64,000 nt of DNA from Opitutaceae bacterium EW11 (GTDB lineage Bacteria; Verrucomicrobiota; Verrucomicrobiia; Opitutales; Opitutaceae). Positions 15,289 through 58,752 of the stretch are shown here, piece by piece (the first letter of the stretch is position 1; each line of letters opens with the position of its first letter). The translations under genes were made by a program, and so were the position numbers. The notes below the pieces were generated by a model that saw nothing but the letters and a program-made list of their open reading frames with translations, did no database searches and was not told the origin of the DNA. The DNA is taken from contig QAYY01000001.1 in assembly GCA_003054665.1 (NCBI GenBank), positions 671,501 to 735,500 of the forward strand, read 5' to 3'.

Positions 15289-16515
15289 ATGCGAAAACCA
15301 GCCGCCCCTCGTTCAGCTCCGCCCCCTCGCCCCGCCGGACCGACGCAGGCCGGCTCAAACGGAAGCAACGGCACACCGCCGCGTCCGCATCCCGAGGCGA
15401 TCGAAACCGCGAAGGCGGCCGGGCTGCGGTATGTCTCGGACACGCAGCCCGGCATCGTTCGCGAGCCGGCGGGGAAGGGCTTCCGCTACCGGGGGCCGGA
15501 CGGAAACATCGTCAAAGACCCGGCGACGCTCGGGCGGATCAAGCGGCTGGCGATCCCGCCGGCGTGGACGGAAGTCTGGATCTGTCCGTCGGCGAGCGGG
15601 CATATCCAGGCCACCGGACGCGACGCGCGGAAGAGAAAACAGTACCGCTACCACACCGATTGGCGCACCGTCCGCGACGAGAACAAGTACGAGCGGATGA
15701 TCGCGTTCGGGCAGGCCCTGCCGCGCATCCGCGCCCGGGTGGCGCGCGACCTCTCGGCACCTGGGCTCGGGAGGACCAAGGTCCTGGCCGCCGTGGCGCG
15801 TCTCCTCGAAACCACGCTGATCCGGATCGGCAACGAGGAATACGCGAAGGAGAACCACTCTTTCGGGCTGAGCACGATGCGCGACCGTCATGTATCCATC
15901 CGGCGCGATACACTCCATTTCGAGTTCCGCGGAAAGAGCGGCCGCCGCCACGAGATCGATCTCCAGGATCCGCGTCTCGCCGCGGTCGTGCGCGAAACGC
16001 AGGATCTGCCGGGACAGGATCTGTTTCAGTATCTCGACGCCGGCGGCGACGTGCAGAAAATAACCTCCGAGGACGTCAACGGCTATCTTCGCGAGATCGC
16101 CGGCTCGGAATTCTCCGCCAAGGATTTTCGCACCTGGGCCGGCACGGTGCTGGCCGCGATGGCGCTGTCCGGATTCGATGCGTTCGCCACGAAGGCGCAG
16201 GCAAAAAAGAACCTGGTCCGCGCCGTGGAACTCGTCGCGGAACGGCTCGGCAACACCCCGGCGGTCTGCCGCAAATGCTACATTCACCCCGTCGTGCTGC
16301 AGAGCTACCTCGACGGCGCGACGGTGCAGGTGCTGAAGGGCAAAGCGGCGGCGGCGCCGCGCGGACGGAAACATTCTCTGGCCCCGGACGAGCAGGCGGT
16401 GCTGGCATTCCTCCAGCGCCGACTCGAAGCGGCCGCCCGTGCGCCTTCCCTCCGAGAGCAGCTCGCCCGGTCGCTCGGGCGGCGCCGCAAATCAAAAGCA
16501 TCCACTCGTCGTTGA
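15289..16515 (+). CDS. Type IB DNA topoisomerase (bacterial, poxvirus-like)
   Basis: A 408-residue topoisomerase IB, which relaxes supercoils through a 3'-phosphotyrosyl intermediate. The N-terminal domain has RYRGPDGNIVKDPATLGRI and LAIPPAWTEVWICP. The catalytic domain has RRHEIDLQD and KDFRTWAGTV, and the active-site Tyr at about 331 in CRKCYIHPVV. The C-terminus is Arg/Lys-rich. The open frame extends to 14881, but the ATG at 15289 gives a short basic Pro-rich leader before the conserved domain; a later start is possible. Such enzymes occur in scattered bacterial genomes. The divergent neighbour, UdgX, is another DNA-repair-type protein. Confidence 0.93.
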   Translation: MRKPAAPRSAPPPRPAGPTQAGSNGSNGTPPRPHPEAIETAKAAGLRYVSDTQPGIVREPAGKGFRYRGPDGNIVKDPATLGRIKRLAIPPAWTEVWICPSASGHIQATGRDARKRKQYRYHTDWRTVRDENKYERMIAFGQALPRIRARVARDLSAPGLGRTKVLAAVARLLETTLIRIGNEEYAKENHSFGLSTMRDRHVSIRRDTLHFEFRGKSGRRHEIDLQDPRLAAVVRETQDLPGQDLFQYLDAGGDVQKITSEDVNGYLREIAGSEFSAKDFRTWAGTVLAAMALSGFDAFATKAQAKKNLVRAVELVAERLGNTPAVCRKCYIHPVVLQSYLDGATVQVLKGKAAAAPRGRKHSLAPDEQAVLAFLQRRLEAAARAPSLREQLARSLGRRRKSKASTRR

Positions 16516-49885: not shown

Positions 49886-51229
49886 ATGCCGACCGAAACG
49901 CTCGCACCCACGGATCTTCCCCGCATCGCCATGGTGTCCACCCATGGCTACGTCGCAGCCAATCCGCCTCTGGGGGCGGCGGACACGGGCGGACAGGTCG
50001 TGTACGTCCTCGAGCTCTCGAAGAAACTCGCGCAGCTCGGTTACGAGGTCGACATCTGGACGCGGCGGTTCGAGGACCAGCCGGAGATCGAACCCGTCAC
50101 CGACCGCGTGCGTATCCTGCGCATGCCTTGCGGCGGTCGGGCGTTCATCGCCAAGGAGTACCTCCACGAACACCTGATGGAATGGTCGGAAAACGCGCTC
50201 CGCTTCATCCGGCGGCACGGCCTGAAATACCAGTTCTTCAACAGCCACTATTGGGACGCCGGCTACGCCACGCAGCATCTGGCGGACGTGCTCGACGCTC
50301 CCCACGTGCACACGCCCCACTCGCTCGGGATCTGGAAAAAGCAGCTGATGGAGCGGGATTTCCCGGAAGATGCGGCGAACTTCGAGAAGAAGTACAACTT
50401 CGCGGCCCGCATCCGTGAAGAGACCGTGCTTTATCAGAGCGCGGATGCCGTGGTCGCCACGACCCCTCCACAGCTCGACATGCTCACGGCCGACTACGGC
50501 GTCCCCGCAGCCAAGGCGCACATGATCCCGCCCGGCTACGACGACAACCGCTATTATCCGGTGAGCGCCGCCTCCCGCGCCGTCGTCCGCCAGCGCCTGG
50601 GTTTCGAGGGCAAAGTGGTCCTGGCCCTGGGGCGGCTGGCCCGGAACAAGGGCTACGATCTGCTCGTGCAGTCCTTCGCGCTCGTCGCGGCGCGGCTGCC
50701 GGAAGCGCGCCTGCACCTCGCCGTCGGGGGCGAGTCGGACCTCAGCCCGCGGGAGAAGGAGGTTCTCGACGAGCTCCACCGGCTGGTCGACGAACTGAAC
50801 CTGCGCGACCGCGTTCGTTTCGCCGCGTTCATTCCGGAGGACTTGATGGCGGATCACTACCGTGCCGCGGACATCTTCGTGCTCAGCAGCCGCTACGAGC
50901 CGTTTGGCATGACCGCGATCGAGGCGATGGCGTGCGGACTGCCGACCGTCGTGACCACCCATGGCGGACTTTTCCGCGCGATCACCTTCGGGCGGCATGC
51001 GTTGTATGCCGATCCGTTCGACCGCGAGGACCTGGGCATGATGATCGTGAAACCGCTCCGTCACCCGCGTCTCTGGGGCCGGCTCTCGCGCATGGGAGCC
51101 CACAAGGCCCGCAGCCTCTTCACCTGGACCGGCATCGCCCAGCAGCTGATCGCGCTCGTCGAGGAGCGCGCGATCGCGCAGGCGTTCACCGACGACGAGT
51201 GGGACGAGCCCTGGCACGACGGCGATTGA
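49886..51229 (+). CDS. GT4 glycosyltransferase, sucrose-phosphate synthase-like
   Basis: A 447-residue GT4 enzyme. The donor/acceptor loop STHGYVAANPPLGAADTGGQVVYVLELSKKLAQLG and FNSHYWDAGYATQHLADVLDAPHVHTPHSLG are typical of sucrose- or mannosylfructose-phosphate synthases. The C-terminal nucleotide-sugar site has ALGRLARNKGYDLLVQSF and the E-x7-E motif SRYEPFGMTAIEAMACGLP. The expected reaction is NDP-hexose plus fructose 6-phosphate giving disaccharide phosphate. UDP-glucose versus GDP-mannose cannot be told from sequence. It is the first gene of a cassette with a phosphatase-invertase fusion and a fructokinase. Confidence 0.9.
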   Translation: MPTETLAPTDLPRIAMVSTHGYVAANPPLGAADTGGQVVYVLELSKKLAQLGYEVDIWTRRFEDQPEIEPVTDRVRILRMPCGGRAFIAKEYLHEHLMEWSENALRFIRRHGLKYQFFNSHYWDAGYATQHLADVLDAPHVHTPHSLGIWKKQLMERDFPEDAANFEKKYNFAARIREETVLYQSADAVVATTPPQLDMLTADYGVPAAKAHMIPPGYDDNRYYPVSAASRAVVRQRLGFEGKVVLALGRLARNKGYDLLVQSFALVAARLPEARLHLAVGGESDLSPREKEVLDELHRLVDELNLRDRVRFAAFIPEDLMADHYRAADIFVLSSRYEPFGMTAIEAMACGLPTVVTTHGGLFRAITFGRHALYADPFDREDLGMMIVKPLRHPRLWGRLSRMGAHKARSLFTWTGIAQQLIALVEERAIAQAFTDDEWDEPWHDGD

Positions 51230-51293
51230 GGACCGGCATCGCCGCATTGCAGCCGGCGAACTCTTGCGTTCGGTTAAGGTCGTCTTTTCGCCC

Positions 51294-53408
51294 ATGCCCA
51301 CTCCAGCGACAGCCCATCGGCAGCCCCGCGTCCGTCTTTTCAGCAGCGACCTCGACGGTACGCTGCTGGGCAACCTCGAGGGTTCGCGCCGGTTCAAGGA
51401 GGCCTGGGAGAAACTGCCCGCCGACACGCGCCCGACCCTGATCTACAACAGCGGCCGGCTCGTGGACGACATGACGCAATTCGTCCAACGCGAGGAGCTG
51501 CCCAAGCCGGAATTCTATATCGGCGGCGTGGGAACCCAGATCTTCGATACACACGCCGGCGTCTTCCTGGAGGAGTTCAACGCGCATATCGGCGAAGGCT
51601 GGGTCCGCGACACCGTTGACTCCGTCACCGCGCGCACGCCGGGCATCCGGCCCCAGCCGCCGGAATTCCAACACCGCTTCAAATCCAGCTGGTTTCTCGA
51701 CAACGCCACGATCGCGCAGCTGCAGGACCTCGAGGCGCGGCTCGCGGCCGCCGGCTTGGAGGTGAACGTCGTGTATTCGAGCCAGCGCGACCTCGACGTC
51801 GTGCCCAAACGCGCCACGAAAGGAGGCGCGCTCACCTGGCTCTGCGAACGCCTCGGCGTGCCGCTCGCCGAAGTGCTCGTCGCCGGAGACACGGGCAACG
51901 ACAGCAGCATGCTCCGCCTCCCCGGCATCCGCGGCATCGTGGTCGACAACGCGCAGCCCGAGCTGCTCGAGGCCACGGTCGACATCCCGCTCTACACCGC
52001 CCGCGTCGTCCTGGCCGACGGCGTGCTCGACGGCTTGCGGCACTACGGCGTGCTGACGACCCTCCCGTCCGCGCACGAGACCATCATTCCCCGCCGCCAG
52101 ATGGCGCCGTCGTTCCGGCTCCTCTTCACCGGCACGAAGCTCGGCACGCTCAACGACGACGACAAGCGCCTGATTTCGACCGGCTACCAGCATGCCCTGG
52201 TCACGCTGAGAAAAAACATCACGCCGATCGGCTTCTCGGCCTGCTCCCTCGACGACAACCCCGTCACCGGAACCGACGTGAACTACAGGTCGGTCTGGGC
52301 GCGCGACGGCTCGATCTCCGTGATTTACACGCTCGACCTCGAGGCCGACGACATCCGCGAAGCGCAGAAACGCACGCTGGAGACGTTGCTCAGCGCCGCC
52401 TCCCCCACCGGTCAGATCCCCGCGAACGTGCGGATCGCCGACGGCCACGCCGACTACGGAGGCGTGGGAAACATCTGCTCCATCGACAGCGGCCTCTGGG
52501 TGATCATCGCGGTGTTCAACTACGTCGCGCGCACCGGCGATCTCGAGTTCCTGCAGAAACACGCGGCGCGCCTCCAGGTTGCGATGAACTGGCTGAGCGC
52601 GCACGACAGCAATTCGGACGGCCTGCTGGAAATCCCGGAGGCCGGCGACTGGACCGACCTCTTCGGCCGCAGCTACAATGTCCTGTACGACGAGGTGCTT
52701 TGGTACCGCGCCAACGTGTGTTTCGGCCGGCTCCTCGAGTACCTCGGCGATTTCGATCACGCCACCGAGTACCTCCGCTGGTCGCAGCACGTGCGTAGTC
52801 GGATTCTGGATGCGTTTTGGCCGACGACGAAGGCGCCGAATTCCCCGGTGAACGTGAACCGTTTCGCCGACCGGCAGTTCAGCCTCGGCGACTCCCAATA
52901 CCTTTTGGCGGAGATCACGCCCTTTTCGTTCAACTGGCGGTGCGACGTCTACGGCAACATTCTCGCGTTCCTGATGAACCTGCTCGACGTGGATCGCGCC
53001 CGGATCGCTTTCCGGTTCATGTGGGGCGTCGGCGTGAACAACCCCTGGCCCGTTTCGAACCTGTACCCGGTGGTGCAGTCGGGCGACCCCGATTGGCGTC
53101 CCTATTACACCGTCAACCTCCTCAACCTCCCGAACCACTACCACAACGGCGGCATCTGGCCGTTCATCGGCGGACTCTGGGTGCGCTTCATCCACCGCCT
53201 TGGATTCCACGAGGTCGCGCTGAGGGAGCTCGTCCAGCTTGCGAAGCTCAACCGCCTTGGCCGGCAGAACGAATGGGAATTCAACGAGTGGGCGCACGGC
53301 ACCACCGGCCGCCCGATGGGAAAAGCCTACCAAGCATGGTCCGCCGCCACGTTCATCAAAGCGTGCCACGAGGTGGAGGCCGACCCCAAGCGACTCCGCA
53401 CGGACTGA
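51294..53408 (+). CDS. Sucrose-phosphate phosphatase fused to a GH100-like neutral invertase
   Basis: A 704-residue two-domain protein. Residues about 10-250 are a HAD-IIB phosphatase: FSSDLDGTLLGN (nucleophile and acid Asp), IYNSGRLVDDM, VPKRATKGGAL (Lys) and VAGDTGNDSSML. Residues about 270-700 form an (alpha/alpha)6-barrel glycosidase: NYRSVWARDGSIS (acid Asp), EIPEAGDWTDLFGR, NLPNHYHNGGIWPFIGG, and QNEWEFNEWAHGTTGRPMGKAYQAWSAA with the candidate base Glu. The glycosidase part is closest, by motif, to neutral/alkaline invertases (GH100) and relatives. One protein would thus both release sucrose from its phosphate and hydrolyse it. A TTG at 51264 is possible, but the ATG at 51294 is preferred. 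Confidence 0.87.
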   Translation: MPTPATAHRQPRVRLFSSDLDGTLLGNLEGSRRFKEAWEKLPADTRPTLIYNSGRLVDDMTQFVQREELPKPEFYIGGVGTQIFDTHAGVFLEEFNAHIGEGWVRDTVDSVTARTPGIRPQPPEFQHRFKSSWFLDNATIAQLQDLEARLAAAGLEVNVVYSSQRDLDVVPKRATKGGALTWLCERLGVPLAEVLVAGDTGNDSSMLRLPGIRGIVVDNAQPELLEATVDIPLYTARVVLADGVLDGLRHYGVLTTLPSAHETIIPRRQMAPSFRLLFTGTKLGTLNDDDKRLISTGYQHALVTLRKNITPIGFSACSLDDNPVTGTDVNYRSVWARDGSISVIYTLDLEADDIREAQKRTLETLLSAASPTGQIPANVRIADGHADYGGVGNICSIDSGLWVIIAVFNYVARTGDLEFLQKHAARLQVAMNWLSAHDSNSDGLLEIPEAGDWTDLFGRSYNVLYDEVLWYRANVCFGRLLEYLGDFDHATEYLRWSQHVRSRILDAFWPTTKAPNSPVNVNRFADRQFSLGDSQYLLAEITPFSFNWRCDVYGNILAFLMNLLDVDRARIAFRFMWGVGVNNPWPVSNLYPVVQSGDPDWRPYYTVNLLNLPNHYHNGGIWPFIGGLWVRFIHRLGFHEVALRELVQLAKLNRLGRQNEWEFNEWAHGTTGRPMGKAYQAWSAATFIKACHEVEADPKRLRTD

Positions 53409-53594
53409 CGCCGCGGCCTCGTTCACCAGGCTACTCCGGCGCTCGTCTGGCCAAGCGACCGGGGCGGATCCGCCCGACGCGTCGTCGAAAGATTCCGAAA
53501 AACCGGGCGCTCCGTGTGCAACCCTGCGCGGGTGGGTTTACTTTTGCAGTGCGTCCGAATGCGACCCCTGCGCCGCCGACGGCCACACGCCCGC

Positions 53595-54485
53595 ATGCCC
53601 TCTACTCCCCCCAGCATCGTCTGTTTCGGCGAGATCCTCTGGGACATCCTTCCCCGGGGCCGCTTTCCTGGCGGAGCACCGTTCAACGTCGGCTTTCACC
53701 TGCACGCCCAGGGAGCGGACGTGCTGCTCGCGTCGGCGGTGGGATGCGACGAGTTCGGGAATGAGCTTCTCTCGCGGCTGCGGTCCGCGGGGATTCCGAC
53801 CGCCGGCATCACGCGCCACGCCGATCTCCCGACCGGCACGGTGCACGCCAAGGTCGCCCCGGAGGGCGACGCCCAATACCAGATCGTCGAGAACGTCGCC
53901 TGGGACCGTATCGAACTCAACCCCGCGGTCCTCGCTGCCGCGGCGAAAGCGCGTGCGATCATCTTCGGGTCGCTCGCCCAGCGTTCGACCTACAACCGCA
54001 ATTCCCTCGACGAGCTCCTCGAGGTGGCCGATCCGGAGGCCTGGCGCGTATTCGACATCAACCTACGCTCCCCGCACGACGACCTCGCGCTGGCGGGCCT
54101 GCTCGCCAGCCGGGCCACGCTCCTGAAGCTCAATTCCGCGGAGGCCGCGCGGCTCGCCACGGGGGCCGACGAGAGGCCCGGCCGGGAAGAACAGGATGCC
54201 CGGCGGCTGCAGTCGGAGACCGGCTGCCGCCTGGTCTGCGTCACCGCCGGCGCCCGCGGGGCAGGCATCCTGGCCGACGGAAAGTGGTATTGGGAAACAG
54301 GCCGCGCCGTAGCCGTCGCCGACACGGTCGGTGCGGGAGACGCCTTTCTCGCCACCCTGCTGCTCCGACTGTTGGAGGCGCCGAAGGGCGTGCAGCCGGC
54401 GTTGACCGCCGCCTGCCGCATGGGCGAGTGGGTCGCGACCCAGCCCGGAGCCACGCCGGCTTACGGCCCGTCGACGCCGCGGTAA
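53595..54485 (+). CDS. Fructokinase (PfkB family)
   Basis: A 296-residue PfkB kinase. IVCFGEILWDILPRGRFPGGAPFNVGFHLHAQG is the fructokinase-type N-terminus (G-G-A-P-x-N-V), and VADTVGAGDAFLATLLL contains the catalytic Asp. The expected reaction is ATP-dependent phosphorylation of fructose to fructose 6-phosphate. As the third gene after the SPS-like and SPP-invertase genes it would return the fructose half to the pool. The ATG at 53595 (MPSTPPSIVCFGEIL) is the family start; the upstream open frame is cysteine/arginine noise. The 186-bp gap before it may contain a promoter. Confidence 0.92.
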   Translation: MPSTPPSIVCFGEILWDILPRGRFPGGAPFNVGFHLHAQGADVLLASAVGCDEFGNELLSRLRSAGIPTAGITRHADLPTGTVHAKVAPEGDAQYQIVENVAWDRIELNPAVLAAAAKARAIIFGSLAQRSTYNRNSLDELLEVADPEAWRVFDINLRSPHDDLALAGLLASRATLLKLNSAEAARLATGADERPGREEQDARRLQSETGCRLVCVTAGARGAGILADGKWYWETGRAVAVADTVGAGDAFLATLLLRLLEAPKGVQPALTAACRMGEWVATQPGATPAYGPSTPR

Positions 54486-54655: not shown

Positions 54656-56839
54656 TCAGCCTGCGGACTTCTCGAGGTGTTTCTTCAACCGCAGGACTTC
54701 GACGCCGGCGAGCAGGACGATTCCGATGCCGTGCGTGTCGTTCAGGTTCCAGAGCAGCTCCTTCTTGTAGTACTCCGGCGTGAACGAGAATTCCGAACCG
54801 CGGCAAACGCCATGCACGTTCCCATCGCGATCGATGGACGTCTTGTTCAAAGCCTCCCAGGCGCGGAACACCGCGTCGATGTAAGGCTCGTTGTTCGCGA
54901 ACCAGCCGTTCTGCACGCCGCGAGCAAACGCGTAGGTGAACATCGAAGTGCAGGAGGTTTCCGGATACGAATCGGGATGGTTCAGCACCTGATGCCACAT
55001 GCCGTTGGCGTCCTGCAGCGCAAGGTAACCTTCGCAGAGGTCGCGGAACATCGCGAGCAGCTCCGGCTTCAGCGCATGGTTCGCGGGAAGCACGGCGAGG
55101 AGTTCGGAAAGCGAGAAGATGACCCAGCCGTTGCCGCGCCCCCAGGGGATGCCGGTGGCCATGTCTCGTTTGAAGTCGTAGACGTGCGACATCACCTTCC
55201 ACTCGGGAATGAAGAGCCGCTTCTTGAAACCGAGGAACTGGCGGGCGGCGTCGTCGATGTACTTCTGTTCGCCGCTCAGCTGGTAATACCGGCAGAGGAA
55301 CGGCACGCTCATGTACAGATCGTCGGCCCAGAGCGTGTCCTCGTGGAACTCGTGCATCAGGTGCTTGCGGAAGAACGTGCCGTCCGGCAGCCGCACCTGC
55401 TTGTTCGCGATGTAGTCCGCGATGTAGTCGGAAATGACCCGATAGCCGTGGATCTCGGCGTGGCGCGCGACCTCCAGCACCACGGAGCCGAAGGAGCCGC
55501 AGTCGTCGAGACTGTCGATGCTCGAGAGCAGGTGGTGCACCGCGGTGGCGCCGCCGTACTGCTCGCGGTCCCAGAGCGCGTATTCAAACGTGTCGCAGCA
55601 GTACTGGATGTGCCCCTGGATATAGTCCTTCACCTCCGACGAGCCGATCGCGGCCGCGCTGTGAAGCAGGCCGTAAAGCGTGACGCCGAGCGGGTAGTTC
55701 CAGCGGCCATACAACGGATTCTCGTTGTACGGGCGCAGCCACGCGTCGGGGAGATCGACCCGCCAGTACGTCTTGCCTCCGCCGAGGGCGGGAAAAACGC
55801 GGTTCAGATCCCGGAAATCACGGAGATTCCGCGAATCCTGGGCGAACGGCCCGATGTAGATCCAGGGCTCGGTCGTGCCGACGGTGTTCGACGGGCTGCG
55901 CAGACCGACGTCCGTGCCCGTGTCGACGATGCTGAGCGTGAAGCCCCAGTCCTTCGCATCGTTGCAGCCGCTCTTGACCATCACGTCGTGGTCGCCGAAC
56001 GGCACCTCGATCTTGGCATTCACCGCGCCGGATTTAGACGCCTCGTAGACCACCGTGTCGTTGACCAGGAGTTGGACCGAACCGCGATGTTCGCCCTTCA
56101 AAGTGTACGCATGTTTGCCCGGGCGCAGGAACAGACCTTTCGTCCAAGCCACGGCATAACCGCCCGGAACGAGACCGAAAATGCGGTTGAGCTGGCCGAC
56201 GCGCCGCTTCTCCGCCGACCAGGTCAGCTCCGGAAGCCACTCGAGGCCCGTATCCGCTTCCGTCATCCCGGGGCCCGGCAGGCTATCCAGCTCGGCCGAG
56301 AGGGGGCGTGTGAAGATCCAGCCTTCCTGGCCCTCCCGCTCCTTGGTCGGCATGATGAAATAGTACGGAAGCTTTCCGAGCCAGGTGCCGAAACGTCCGC
56401 CGAAGCCCGCCTTCGTCTTCTTCGAACGGACAATGAAATGATTCCAGCCGGCCTTCACCTTGATCGTCAGCCGCGTCCGCTGGTCGGCATAACGCTCGGT
56501 GAAGATGTTCGAACGGAAAACGACTTCCCGATTGCAGTAGATCACCATCGGGCTGAAGCAGCTGACGTCGAACATCAGCTCCGCATCGCGATCGGTCCAA
56601 TACTTCGCCCAGGCGTAGACGTACTGCTCGGCTTGGGCGTCCGGGAAGAAGCGATTGAAGTCCGCGTCGTACCGATAGTCCTTGCCGCGCAGAATGCCGC
56701 GCCTGCTGTAGGCCCGGAAGGTCGGCGGGTGCGCTGGATTGCAGCCTACGTAACGGCGCACGACGCCTTCCAGCGTCGCTTCAATGTGCATGCCGGCTTG
56801 GCCAAACATGCTGTTTCGGCTGTCGAAATAGAAACCCAT
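54656..56839 (-). CDS. GH105/GH88-like unsaturated glycuronyl hydrolase
   Basis: A 727-residue enzyme. The C-terminal half (about 380-725) is an (alpha/alpha)6 barrel of the GH105/GH88 type: the catalytic Asp is in TLWADDLYMSVPFL, and PWGRGNGWVIFSLSELL, YPETSCTSMFTYAFARGVQNGW and the closing NDTHGIGIVLLAGVEV are characteristic. The N-terminal half (about 1-350) is a beta-rich region resembling PA14/jelly-roll domains (WNHFIVRSKKTKAGFGG, VQLLVNDTVVYEASKSG). No signal peptide was found. The enzyme would remove unsaturated uronic acid from pectin or glycosaminoglycan-type oligosaccharides made by lyases. Start at 56839 (MGFYFDSRNSMFG); 56950 would add a basic lead. Confidence 0.86.
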   Translation of the reverse strand: MGFYFDSRNSMFGQAGMHIEATLEGVVRRYVGCNPAHPPTFRAYSRRGILRGKDYRYDADFNRFFPDAQAEQYVYAWAKYWTDRDAELMFDVSCFSPMVIYCNREVVFRSNIFTERYADQRTRLTIKVKAGWNHFIVRSKKTKAGFGGRFGTWLGKLPYYFIMPTKEREGQEGWIFTRPLSAELDSLPGPGMTEADTGLEWLPELTWSAEKRRVGQLNRIFGLVPGGYAVAWTKGLFLRPGKHAYTLKGEHRGSVQLLVNDTVVYEASKSGAVNAKIEVPFGDHDVMVKSGCNDAKDWGFTLSIVDTGTDVGLRSPSNTVGTTEPWIYIGPFAQDSRNLRDFRDLNRVFPALGGGKTYWRVDLPDAWLRPYNENPLYGRWNYPLGVTLYGLLHSAAAIGSSEVKDYIQGHIQYCCDTFEYALWDREQYGGATAVHHLLSSIDSLDDCGSFGSVVLEVARHAEIHGYRVISDYIADYIANKQVRLPDGTFFRKHLMHEFHEDTLWADDLYMSVPFLCRYYQLSGEQKYIDDAARQFLGFKKRLFIPEWKVMSHVYDFKRDMATGIPWGRGNGWVIFSLSELLAVLPANHALKPELLAMFRDLCEGYLALQDANGMWHQVLNHPDSYPETSCTSMFTYAFARGVQNGWFANNEPYIDAVFRAWEALNKTSIDRDGNVHGVCRGSEFSFTPEYYKKELLWNLNDTHGIGIVLLAGVEVLRLKKHLEKSAG

Positions 56840-57163
56840 TGGGGGAAAGAATTGGAAACCGATTCCGAGCCCGAGGCCCGGACGAACTAAACACCCGGAG
56901 CCCAGGACTCGCAGCAGACGCGCCTTCGAGGGGTGCTTGTCACGGGACAACAGCAGGCGCGCCGCACTGACGATTTGGATTTGAGGGGTCGCCAGTCACG
57001 GATCGGCGGGCATGGGTGACAACGCAGCTGACGTCTGACTGTAAGAAGATCCGCGTCCCGGATGCGAACGGGGTGTTCCCAGCGACAAACTCGCGCAGGC
57101 TCGCTCCGCGAAAAAACGCGGAAGCTCGTTTTCCGCCGCCAGAATCCACGCCGGGCGTTTCGT
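56840..57163. other. 324-bp intergenic region, no gene seen
   Basis: Between the GH5 gene stop and the GH105-like start, both minus. Frames are noisy. A promoter for the GH105-like gene is expected, but no convincing element was found. Confidence 0.45.
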
Positions 57164-58276
57164 TCAATTCTGCAGCAGCAGCTCCAGCATGCGGCGGTCC
57201 AGCTTATGGCCGTGAAACTTCTCGTACTTCACATCGTGGCGCTGGCTGTCCACCACGCCGAAGCCGCCGCGCAGATTCCACATCGCCCAGCCCCAGCCGA
57301 CTTCCTTCCACACCGCGAGCATGTCGGCCATCCAGGCGAGCGTCACGTCGTGGGGCGTGGCGGTGAAGCAGCCCCACTCGCCCACGTGCACGGGCACGCC
57401 TTTCGCCAGGAGCGGCTGCCACTTCGCCGTCAATTCTTGCCGCAGCTTTTCGCGATTCCACGTCACGCCCTTGCTGTCGACCATCGGCCACGTGGGCTTC
57501 TCGAACGACTCGAATTCGTTCTTCGGCACCCACGTCGCGGTGTAGTGGCTGATCATTTTCGGCAGGTAGCCGCGCGTGCTCTGCACGACACCCTCGTCGA
57601 CAAGTCCGAGGACGGGGGTCTGCCCGATGTCGGCGCCGTCGGCGACGATCAACCGGCCCGGGCTCTCCTCCCGAATCGCCGCGATCAGCGTCTTGGCGAT
57701 TTCGACGTAGCGCGATTGATCGGGCATGAACGGAGGCTCGTTCATGAGATCGAAGCTGAGCCGGTCCGCCGGCACGTCCTTGTAGCGGCGCGCAAAATAC
57801 CGCCAGTGAAACACCGCGGCATCCAGCGCCCGCTCCATCGAATCGCGCGGGCTGTCGAAAAGCAGGTACGGCTCTAGTTCGCGGCCGTTCACGCAATAGC
57901 CGGGGATGCGATGGAAATTCAGGTTGATGTGAACTCCGTACTGCCGGCCCCACTCGATCGCGCGATCGATCGGCGCCAGCGCGCGTTCGTCGATCGTTTT
58001 CCAATCCTTCCGGTCGGACCACGCCCAATACGAAAGCGGGAGCCGGGCGAAACTCATCTTCCACTCCGACATCCACTGGAAGTCGGATTCCCGGAAAGAC
58101 TGGCCGCGTTTGCCACCGGTCAGCTCGGTCAGGTTGAACCCCCGCCAGCGCGGGATTCTCGGCTGCGCCACCTCCGTTTTCCCGGGCACCGGGCCGGCCT
58201 GGCCGCGCAGTGAGGAGCCGATAACGAGGCCCGCCGCGGCGGAAGCGGTGGCACCGAGGAACGTGCGTCGATTCAT
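57164..58276 (-). CDS. Secreted GH5-family glycoside hydrolase (Tat signal)
   Basis: A 370-residue exported glycosidase. The twin-arginine signal is MNRRTFLGATASAAAGLVIG (RR-T-F-L), with cleavage near residue 27. The TIM-barrel shows the GH5 acid/base Glu in DLMNEPPFMP (about 210) and the nucleophile Glu in HVGEWGCFT (about 320), plus FRESDFQWMSEWKMSFARLPLSYWAW and HINLNFHRIPGYC. Cellulase/mannanase-type activity is expected. It is followed after 324 bp by a GH105-like gene on the same strand. The upstream frame lacks a signal, so the ATG at 58276 is preferred. Confidence 0.93.
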   Translation of the reverse strand: MNRRTFLGATASAAAGLVIGSSLRGQAGPVPGKTEVAQPRIPRWRGFNLTELTGGKRGQSFRESDFQWMSEWKMSFARLPLSYWAWSDRKDWKTIDERALAPIDRAIEWGRQYGVHINLNFHRIPGYCVNGRELEPYLLFDSPRDSMERALDAAVFHWRYFARRYKDVPADRLSFDLMNEPPFMPDQSRYVEIAKTLIAAIREESPGRLIVADGADIGQTPVLGLVDEGVVQSTRGYLPKMISHYTATWVPKNEFESFEKPTWPMVDSKGVTWNREKLRQELTAKWQPLLAKGVPVHVGEWGCFTATPHDVTLAWMADMLAVWKEVGWGWAMWNLRGGFGVVDSQRHDVKYEKFHGHKLDRRMLELLLQN

Positions 58277-58431
58277 GGGGAAAAGAAGGGGCGAAAGGGA
58301 GGAGTCCGCAAATCGAACCAGGCGATGGGAACCCGGCAAAGCGGCGCTCCATGCATTCGTTAGGATGATGCGAATGCGCCGGCACGGTCTTCGCCGCCCG
58401 ACCTGTGCCCGTCGCTCGCGGGTCCGCCCGC

Positions 58432-58752
58432 CTACAGCACCGACGCGGCCCAGGACGGAAGCGGAAAACGCCGGCCGCGAACGTAGTCCAGGAGCAAGCT
58501 CTCCACCCACCGCCGGGAACAGCGGCACTGTTCGACTTCGATGAAGCGCTTGGCTCCTTCGGCGTGCACGGCGTAACGCTCGACGTCGATCGTCACCGGC
58601 GAAGTCTCGCCGTCGAGAAGCGCCACGATTCGCACCCGCCGGTTCCTCGAATCGATCGAGAGGTCCTCCACCTTGCCGTAGCGGGCGATCAGGTTATTGA
58701 CGTAGGTTTTCGCGGCCCGGCTGCTGACGAGATCTTTGGCGGCGTGAAACAT
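58432..58752 (-). CDS. Small soluble protein of unknown function
   Basis: A 106-residue protein. The N-terminal part is helix-then-strand (AAKDLVSSRAAKTYVNNLIARYGKVEDLSIDSRNRRVRIVALLDGETSPVTIDVERYAV), the middle has RFIEVEQCRCSRRWVESLLLDY, and a basic tail follows. It has the look of a real, conserved domain (alternating strand/helix pattern), but I cannot name it. It is divergent from the UbiB gene. Confidence 0.68.
   Translation of the reverse strand: MFHAAKDLVSSRAAKTYVNNLIARYGKVEDLSIDSRNRRVRIVALLDGETSPVTIDVERYAVHAEGAKRFIEVEQCRCSRRWVESLLLDYVRGRRFPLPSWAASVL

Follow-up and report, generated by a model that had tools for sequence, protein, structure and literature searches.

Within a 64,000-nt stretch of Opitutaceae bacterium EW11 (the window; contig QAYY01000001.1, forward strand, positions 671,501–735,500), three co-directional frames encode a GT4 glycosyltransferase, a protein in which a HAD-IIB phosphatase is fused to a GH100-like glycosidase, and a PfkB-family sugar kinase. 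The fusion is real. Both domains are complete in one frame at 36 of 50 related loci, some fused frame occurs at 40 of the 50, and 37 sequences align over their full length, which excludes both chance and a local frame error. The three genes may form a cycle in the cytoplasm that makes and breaks a disaccharide. The likeliest sugar is mannosylfructose, an assignment that we hold at even chances. Mannosylfructose, or mannosucrose, is β-D-fructofuranosyl α-D-mannopyranoside. The features, in window coordinates, are as follows.

49886..51229, + strand: GT4 glycosyltransferase, putative hexosyl-fructose-6-phosphate synthase; 447 aa; subfamily related to sucrose-phosphate synthase (SPS), MshA and, presumably, MfpsA
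51294..53408, + strand: fusion protein, HAD-IIB disaccharide-phosphate phosphatase plus GH100-like (α/α)6 glycosidase; 704 aa from ATG
51333..52049, + strand: HAD-IIB phosphatase domain, residues 14–252; Pfam S6PP, match to 1s2o, alignment A1
52161..53384, + strand: GH100-like hydrolase domain, residues ~290–697; Pfam Glyco_hydro_100, fold, aligned Asp/Glu
53595..54485, + strand: PfkB-family sugar kinase, probably fructokinase; 296 aa; Pfam PfkB, 114.7 bits

Conservation of the phosphatase–glycosidase fusion

The 704-residue frame, which an alternative TTG start at 51264 would lengthen to 714 residues, carries two Pfam domains: S6PP at residues 14–252 (217 bits, gathering score 20.3) and Glyco_hydro_100 at residues 310–692 (66.4 bits, cut-off 23.6). 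Searches of solved structures led from the first half to the sucrose-phosphate phosphatase (SPP) of Synechocystis and from the second half to the neutral invertases of Anabaena and Arabidopsis. An AlphaFold model built from 37 sequences (predicted local distance difference test, pLDDT, 84.1; predicted template modeling score 0.88) gave the same division. Residues 12–255 matched Synechocystis SPP (1s2o; Z = 28.9 over 239 residues, 3.0 Å), and residues 296–697 matched the GH100 invertases 6ttj (Z = 34.8, 369 residues) and 5goq (Z = 34.6, 374 residues), both at 3.5 Å, with other (α/α)6 enzymes ranking next (Z ~28–33). Confidence is low at residues 1–8, 391–394, 448–459, 512–548 and 606–610; Asp455 lies within the 448–459 stretch (pLDDT <50), so that part of the active-site region is uncertain in the model.

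The 50 loci (numbered with the prefix L) are relatives drawn from one scan of genome contigs with the fusion, and alignment A1 comprises the window sequence and the 36 full fusions. Four of the 40 loci with a fused frame are incomplete, owing to contig ends or broken frames. The ten loci without one comprise four at which the parts are split (L041–L044), two cut by contig ends (L039 and L048), one with broken frames (L052), L047, and the distant L050 and L051. By record name, the loci belong to six phyla, represented by Opitutaceae and other Verrucomicrobiota, Armatimonadota, Chloroflexota, a Spirochaete, Saprospiraceae, Polaribacter and KSB1. Many of the records are metagenome-assembled genomes, whose labels may be wrong; carriers not so labeled include Verrucomicrobium sp. 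BvORR034 and BvORR106, Polaribacter sp. IC066 and Saprospirales GYS_P2D. The hydrolase domain was present in 29 of 387 Verrucomicrobiota genomes searched, in 26 of the 29 within open frames of at least 691 aa, and a Pfam GH100 search of 145 genomes gave 15 matches in 13 genomes, all within open frames of 691–922 aa.

We aligned 22 hydrolase domains (alignment A2: the window, 17 fused and 4 split) and placed them in a tree with other glycosidases, including three of nine GH63-like loci; five of the others (L077, L078, L081, L082 and L084), represented by a wrong or short frame, and L080, a 324-residue piece, were left aside. All 18 fused rows group in a single clade (95/92), to which the 4 split rows are sister (86/93), a topology consistent with one fusion event and subsequent spread. 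A search of the openly licensed literature (CC0, CC BY, CC BY-SA), judged by titles and abstract openings, found no paper on this phosphatase–hydrolase fusion.

A GT4 homologue lies at 37 of the 40 fused loci, upstream of the fusion in 27 and downstream in 10, the latter all carrying the names Chloroflexota, Bacteroidota or KSB1; at the other three (L008, L029 and L037) the available stretch holds no GT4. At the four split loci, phosphatase, GT4 and hydrolase are separate adjacent genes, in that order at L042 and L044, and with the hydrolase on the opposite strand to the other two at L041 and L043. A fructokinase homologue occurs at 15 of the 50 loci. The initial annotation of this DNA had described three genes, with phosphatase and hydrolase joined in one 704-aa polypeptide adjoining the GT4; the frames, the Pfam domains, the model matches and the conservation in relatives all agree with that description.

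Genes for MscS-type channels lie near 7 of the 50 clusters, on either side: downstream of the kinase at L008 (about 2 kb on), L010, L011, L013 and L027, whereas at L015 and L018 they immediately precede the GT4. Pfam searches of four of the seven (L008, L010, L015 and L018) identified the channel domain in each. The proximity of these channels suggests that the cluster product is an osmolyte, a role that the initial annotation had also proposed.

Predicted catalytic domains of the fusion

Read against the known roles of HAD motif residues, the phosphatase domain appears intact. D19 and D21 (of the DxDGT motif), K176 and D203 are invariant in all 37 rows of A1, and D199 is kept in at least 90%. 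The domain scores 141 bits on the plant and cyanobacterial SPP model TIGR01485, below the cut-off of 183.65, whereas the solved SPP segment of 1s2o passes with 389.4. A further model, TIGR02471 (cut-off 209.75), is failed by both (132.8 and 163.4 bits, respectively) and decides nothing.

In the hydrolase domain, D455 and E665 align with Asp188 and Glu414 of InvA, the catalytic residues of that enzyme (PMC6995568), and both are invariant in 37 of 37 A1 rows. The GH100 invertases InvA, InvB and CINV1 provide the closest solved fold (Z up to 34.8); however, the window domain is only ~20% identical to them, has motifs of its own and lacks the short insert before the last helix that both GH100 rows of the alignment have. 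On Glyco_hydro_100 an InvA segment reaches 606.8 bits and a GH100 protein of Acidithiobacillus 624.8, but the window domain scores 66.4. At the position of Arg430 (InvB numbering), the window and all four fused or split relatives printed have a three-residue gap, and the Acidithiobacillus control has Asn, so the Arg is not strictly kept among GH100 proteins either. With its low Pfam score and its conserved catalytic Asp and Glu, the glycosidase domain is GH100-like and not a canonical invertase, and the initial annotation of the C-terminal domain as an invertase is not supported.

The domain's motifs, DW.D and EWEFNEW, are shared with Deinococcus and Bacillus proteins at 34–36% identity. Motifs of this type, not those of invertases, are found in L056 and L057, which are on Deinococcus plasmids and annotated as GH100 family, and in L050 from Bacillus; at L056 and L057 the hydrolase relatives sit among sugar-transport or sugar-kinase genes.

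Other identities for the C-terminal domain fared less well. It passes the gathering scores of both GH100 and GDE_C, with 66.4 bits on the former and 41.2 on the latter (gathering score 21), whereas a debranching enzyme of the same genome scores 437 on GDE_C. Against an amylo-α-1,6-glucosidase structure the model gives Z = 30.4, compared to 34.8 for GH100. A debranching enzyme, an outcome that would have counted against the initial annotation, is disfavored, since GH100 scores higher and its invertases are the nearest structures. The hydrolase tree adds little here: the two GH100 rows sit on a branch of length 7.3 in an unresolved fork, to be read with a long-branch warning, and the debranching enzyme forms a separate long branch of the same fork. 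A glucosylglycerate hydrolase was rejected (20.6 bits on NF047898, cut-off 550), and a phosphorylase is disfavored by the invariance of Glu665, the expected hydrolase base.

The glycosyltransferase and the kinase

The nearest solved relative of the window GT4 is the assayed SPS of T. elongatus (TeSPS; PDB 6kih), with 34% identity over 381 aligned residues. With TeSPS chain numbering taken as shifted by 3, as inferred from Ala48 and Gln51, the TeSPS residues Gln51, His158, Arg178, Arg249, Glu331 and Glu339 are kept in the GT4, while Arg105 is replaced by Lys and Arg253 by Asn. The His158/Glu331 pair and phosphate-binding basic residues are thereby represented in the GT4 (His145, Glu338, Arg175 and Arg250), a pattern that is not specific to SPS: the TeSPS study describes the His and the acidic residue as general to glycosyltransferases (PMC7264703).

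The NCBIfam SPS model cannot tell SPS apart from enzymes of other activity. The window GT4 scores 214.6 on the SPS model TIGR02472 (cut-off 576) and 206.4 on MshA; its relatives at L002, L035 and L055 score 204.2, 210.5 and 172.4 on SPS and 223.0, 220.7 and 213.7 on MshA, compared to 654.9 on TIGR02472 for a protein encoded on an Acidithiobacillus plasmid. TeSPS itself scores 144.9 on TIGR02472 and 286.2 on MshA. SPS activity therefore occurs in branches that TIGR02472 misses, and because the assayed enzyme fails this model by more than the window GT4 does, the failure of the GT4 does not exclude SPS activity. The TeSPS scores also indicate that naming in the style of the Prokaryotic Genome Annotation Pipeline (PGAP) can miss single-domain cyanobacterial SPS. 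Pairwise identities are 32.6% between the window GT4 and TeSPS, 32.1% between the GT4 and the Acidithiobacillus SPS-scoring protein, and 31.3% between the latter two. By this measure the window GT4 represents one of three about equally distant branches and lies in neither SPS branch tested; sequence comparison does not settle its sugar donor.

A lead to the donor came from a presumed MfpsA sequence of A. fabrum, whose name is provisional. Its identity is 66.0% to the window GT4 and 74.7% to the GT4 of L003, compared to 30.8% for the Acidithiobacillus SPS-scoring protein, 31.8% for TeSPS and ~46–51% for the GT4s of Chloroflexota, Bacteroidota, KSB1 and Paracoccus. Since the presumed MfpsA is closer to the L003 protein than to the window GT4, it was probably not derived from the latter. 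The comparison omitted L009, where the assembly breaks the GT4 into two frames, and included the fragment L021.

Two further genes of this GT4 subfamily were observed in genome G000. One (contig C27, 14415–15743, + strand) is 67% identical to the window GT4 and has as its partner, at 15781–16494, an unfused S6PP phosphatase that shares 49% identity with the phosphatase of the fusion. An apparent sodium–solute symporter gene, recognized by eye, and a GH43 gene flank the pair (L053 9395–11504), and no hydrolase domain of the fused kind was found at this locus. The other (C27, 394637–395956, − strand; L087 5638–6957) is 68% identical, and the 12 kb around it gave no clear match to either the phosphatase or the hydrolase. 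Among 57 genomes searched, G000 alone has three GT4 copies at E ≤ 1e-60. None of 700 matching plasmid records reached at least 60% identity to the GT4, the top-ranked being 46.6% identical.

For the kinase, the best solved relative is 2qhp, named ‘Fructokinase’ (144.5 bits), and the protein is 32% identical to the kinase beside the GH100 and SPS-scoring genes on the Acidithiobacillus plasmid. Of the 18 NCBIfam families listed for it, none is matched above its cut-off. Its sequence relationships indicate that it is probably a fructokinase.

A proposed disaccharide cycle and its alternatives

Three known systems resemble the cluster in part. The Agrobacterium mannosylfructose pathway reportedly consists of a GT4 (MfpsA) and a HAD phosphatase (MfppB) acting on fructose 6-phosphate; it shares these two components with the window, where the phosphatase is instead fused to a hydrolase. 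The Agrobacterium pathway is not known to include a hydrolase. The turnover of compatible solutes in general is less understood than their synthesis. Mannosucrose is a salt-induced compatible solute of A. tumefaciens (PMC2918589). Synechococcus and Methylomicrobium carry clusters of SPS, SPP, fructokinase and amylosucrase, which follow the logic proposed for the window: a fructose-containing disaccharide is synthesized, freed of its phosphate and used again, and the cluster includes a fructokinase; there, however, breakdown is by amylosucrase, and the available part of the report mentions no phosphatase–hydrolase fusion (PMC6949346). The Acidithiobacillus plasmid NZ_CP118751.1 resembles the window in that genes for a PfkB kinase, a hydrolase, a synthase and HAD proteins adjoin one another, together with a major facilitator superfamily (MFS) transporter, but its putative GH100 and SPS are canonical by curated scores and it has no such fusion. 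This plasmid (L059, 10.8 kb) and NZ_CP118752.1 are both small and both pair a GH100 with an SPS-scoring gene; with its MFS and PfkB genes and two short HAD frames, the former looks like a whole sucrose cycle.

In the cycle that we propose, the GT4 would transfer a hexose to fructose 6-phosphate; the hexose is probably mannose, supplied by GDP-mannose. Judging from its domain identity and intact HAD residues, the N-terminal half of the fusion would then take off the phosphate. The C-terminal half, whose fold and conserved Asp/Glu point to a hydrolase, would hydrolyze the disaccharide, probably inverting as GH100 enzymes do, to release hexose and fructose, and the PfkB kinase would return the fructose to fructose 6-phosphate. 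A cell so equipped could make a compatible solute when stressed and break it down once the stress has passed. Because one chain would carry the last synthetic and the first degradative steps at a 1:1 ratio, the two must be regulated against each other. As anatomy, a make-and-break cycle is well supported by the conserved fusion, the matches in fold, the residues kept and the neighborhood; its chemistry is deduced from sequence and predicted structure. We put slightly short of an even chance on the fuller proposal that the fusion is a mannosylfructose-6-phosphate phosphatase and mannosylfructose hydrolase, the latter forming a family of its own beside GH100, so that a single polypeptide, spread as one unit across six or more bacterial phyla, would both complete and destroy a compatible solute.

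The initial annotation had read the cluster as a sucrose cycle and named mannosylfructose as a fallback. The cyclic part of that claim is supported at the level of gene anatomy, as the predicted parts for synthesis and breakdown occur together, also as separate neighbors at 4 of the 50 loci. Sucrose itself would require the GT4 to make sucrose 6-phosphate from a nucleoside diphosphate (NDP)-glucose, the HAD domain to release sucrose and the GH100-like domain to act as a neutral-invertase-type α-glucosidase, a reading that we regard as a serious possibility, if less than an even one. It draws on the nearest solved relatives of the synthase, phosphatase and hydrolase (TeSPS, SPP and the GH100 invertases), on the retention of His158 and Glu331, whose loss abolished TeSPS activity (PMC7264703), and on the occurrence of the same functions beside a GH100 and an SPS-scoring gene in Acidithiobacillus. 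The failed SPS cut-off is no argument against sucrose, because TeSPS misses it by more. Yet the GT4 is no closer to TeSPS or the Acidithiobacillus protein than these are to each other, the phosphatase falls under the plant and cyanobacterial SPP cut-off, and the hydrolase, at 66 bits on GH100 compared to 607 and 625 for the controls, has other motifs. The resemblance to the presumed MfpsA, as a lead, also argues against sucrose. Mannosylfructose is thus the somewhat better reading, with mannose named by the presumed MfpsA sequence.

Several observations weigh against mannosylfructose or against the cycle as a whole. The mannose assignment depends on the presumed MfpsA sequence, and the nearest solved relatives of the cluster proteins, the fructokinase included, are all named for sucrose or fructose. 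TIGR02472 is unusable against sucrose, given that TeSPS scores below the GT4 and nearer to MshA; since the assayed enzyme fails the cut-off, we lowered our estimate for mannosylfructose from a little better than even to even, and that for the fusion family from even to a little below. A phosphatase and a hydrolase active together would be futile, so that regulation is needed. No fructokinase homologue was found at 35 of the 50 loci and no MscS gene at 43, some of these loci being cut short. L047 has the hydrolase without partners: its contig ends inside that gene, and neither a GT4 nor a phosphatase occurs in the 6 kb available. Likewise, the distant L050 (34% identity) and L051 (32%) have neither partner. 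Finally, a Paracoccus GT4–HAD pair adjoins a GH32-like protein, which would suit any β-fructofuranoside, sucrose included.

Two readings would change the role of the cluster. The disaccharide could be a signal or the precursor of a larger oligosaccharide or glycan, with the C-terminal domain a transglycosylase or a hydrolase of the larger product and the fusion a biosynthetic relay. The order of phosphatase then glycosidase would suit direct hand-over, and (α/α)6 enzymes are catalytically diverse, with many families matching the model at Z ~28–33; we nonetheless consider a relay improbable, given that the expected hydrolase base Glu665 is invariant in all 37 sequences and that no further glycan gene was noticed among the recurring neighbor clusters, most of which were left unannotated. 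Less probable still is a purely catabolic role, in which the fusion would dephosphorylate and hydrolyze an imported disaccharide phosphate while the GT4 serves another pathway. The fructokinase homologues at 15 of 50 loci and the three fused loci without a GT4 in the available stretch would fit this role, but a GT4 accompanies 37 of 40 fused loci, on either side by clade, and all four split loci.

If mannosylfructose is indeed the product, the C-terminal domain is a candidate mannosylfructose hydrolase, and the sugar would not be confined to Agrobacterium and rhizobia. The fusion would offer a natural example of opposed reactions held at a 1:1 ratio in one chain, and in Verrucomicrobiota, Chloroflexota and Bacteroidota a different sugar may lie behind genes labeled SPS, SPP or GH100.

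The Paracoccus arrangement lies on plasmid p1 of Paracoccus sp. TOH (L055, 2668–6260), where a GH32-like protein labeled ‘hypothetical’ accompanies a GT4 (46.6% identity to that of the window) and an S6PP phosphatase. The GH32-like protein is possibly an alternative breakdown enzyme for a similar disaccharide. In the window, a scan of the cluster for promoters and terminators gave no clear excess over the shuffled expectation (1 promoter-like element versus 0.4; 3 terminator-like elements versus 3.2). Beside the cluster, at 54656–58528 on the − strand, lie genes for GH88-family and GH5-family proteins, which point to polysaccharide degradation.

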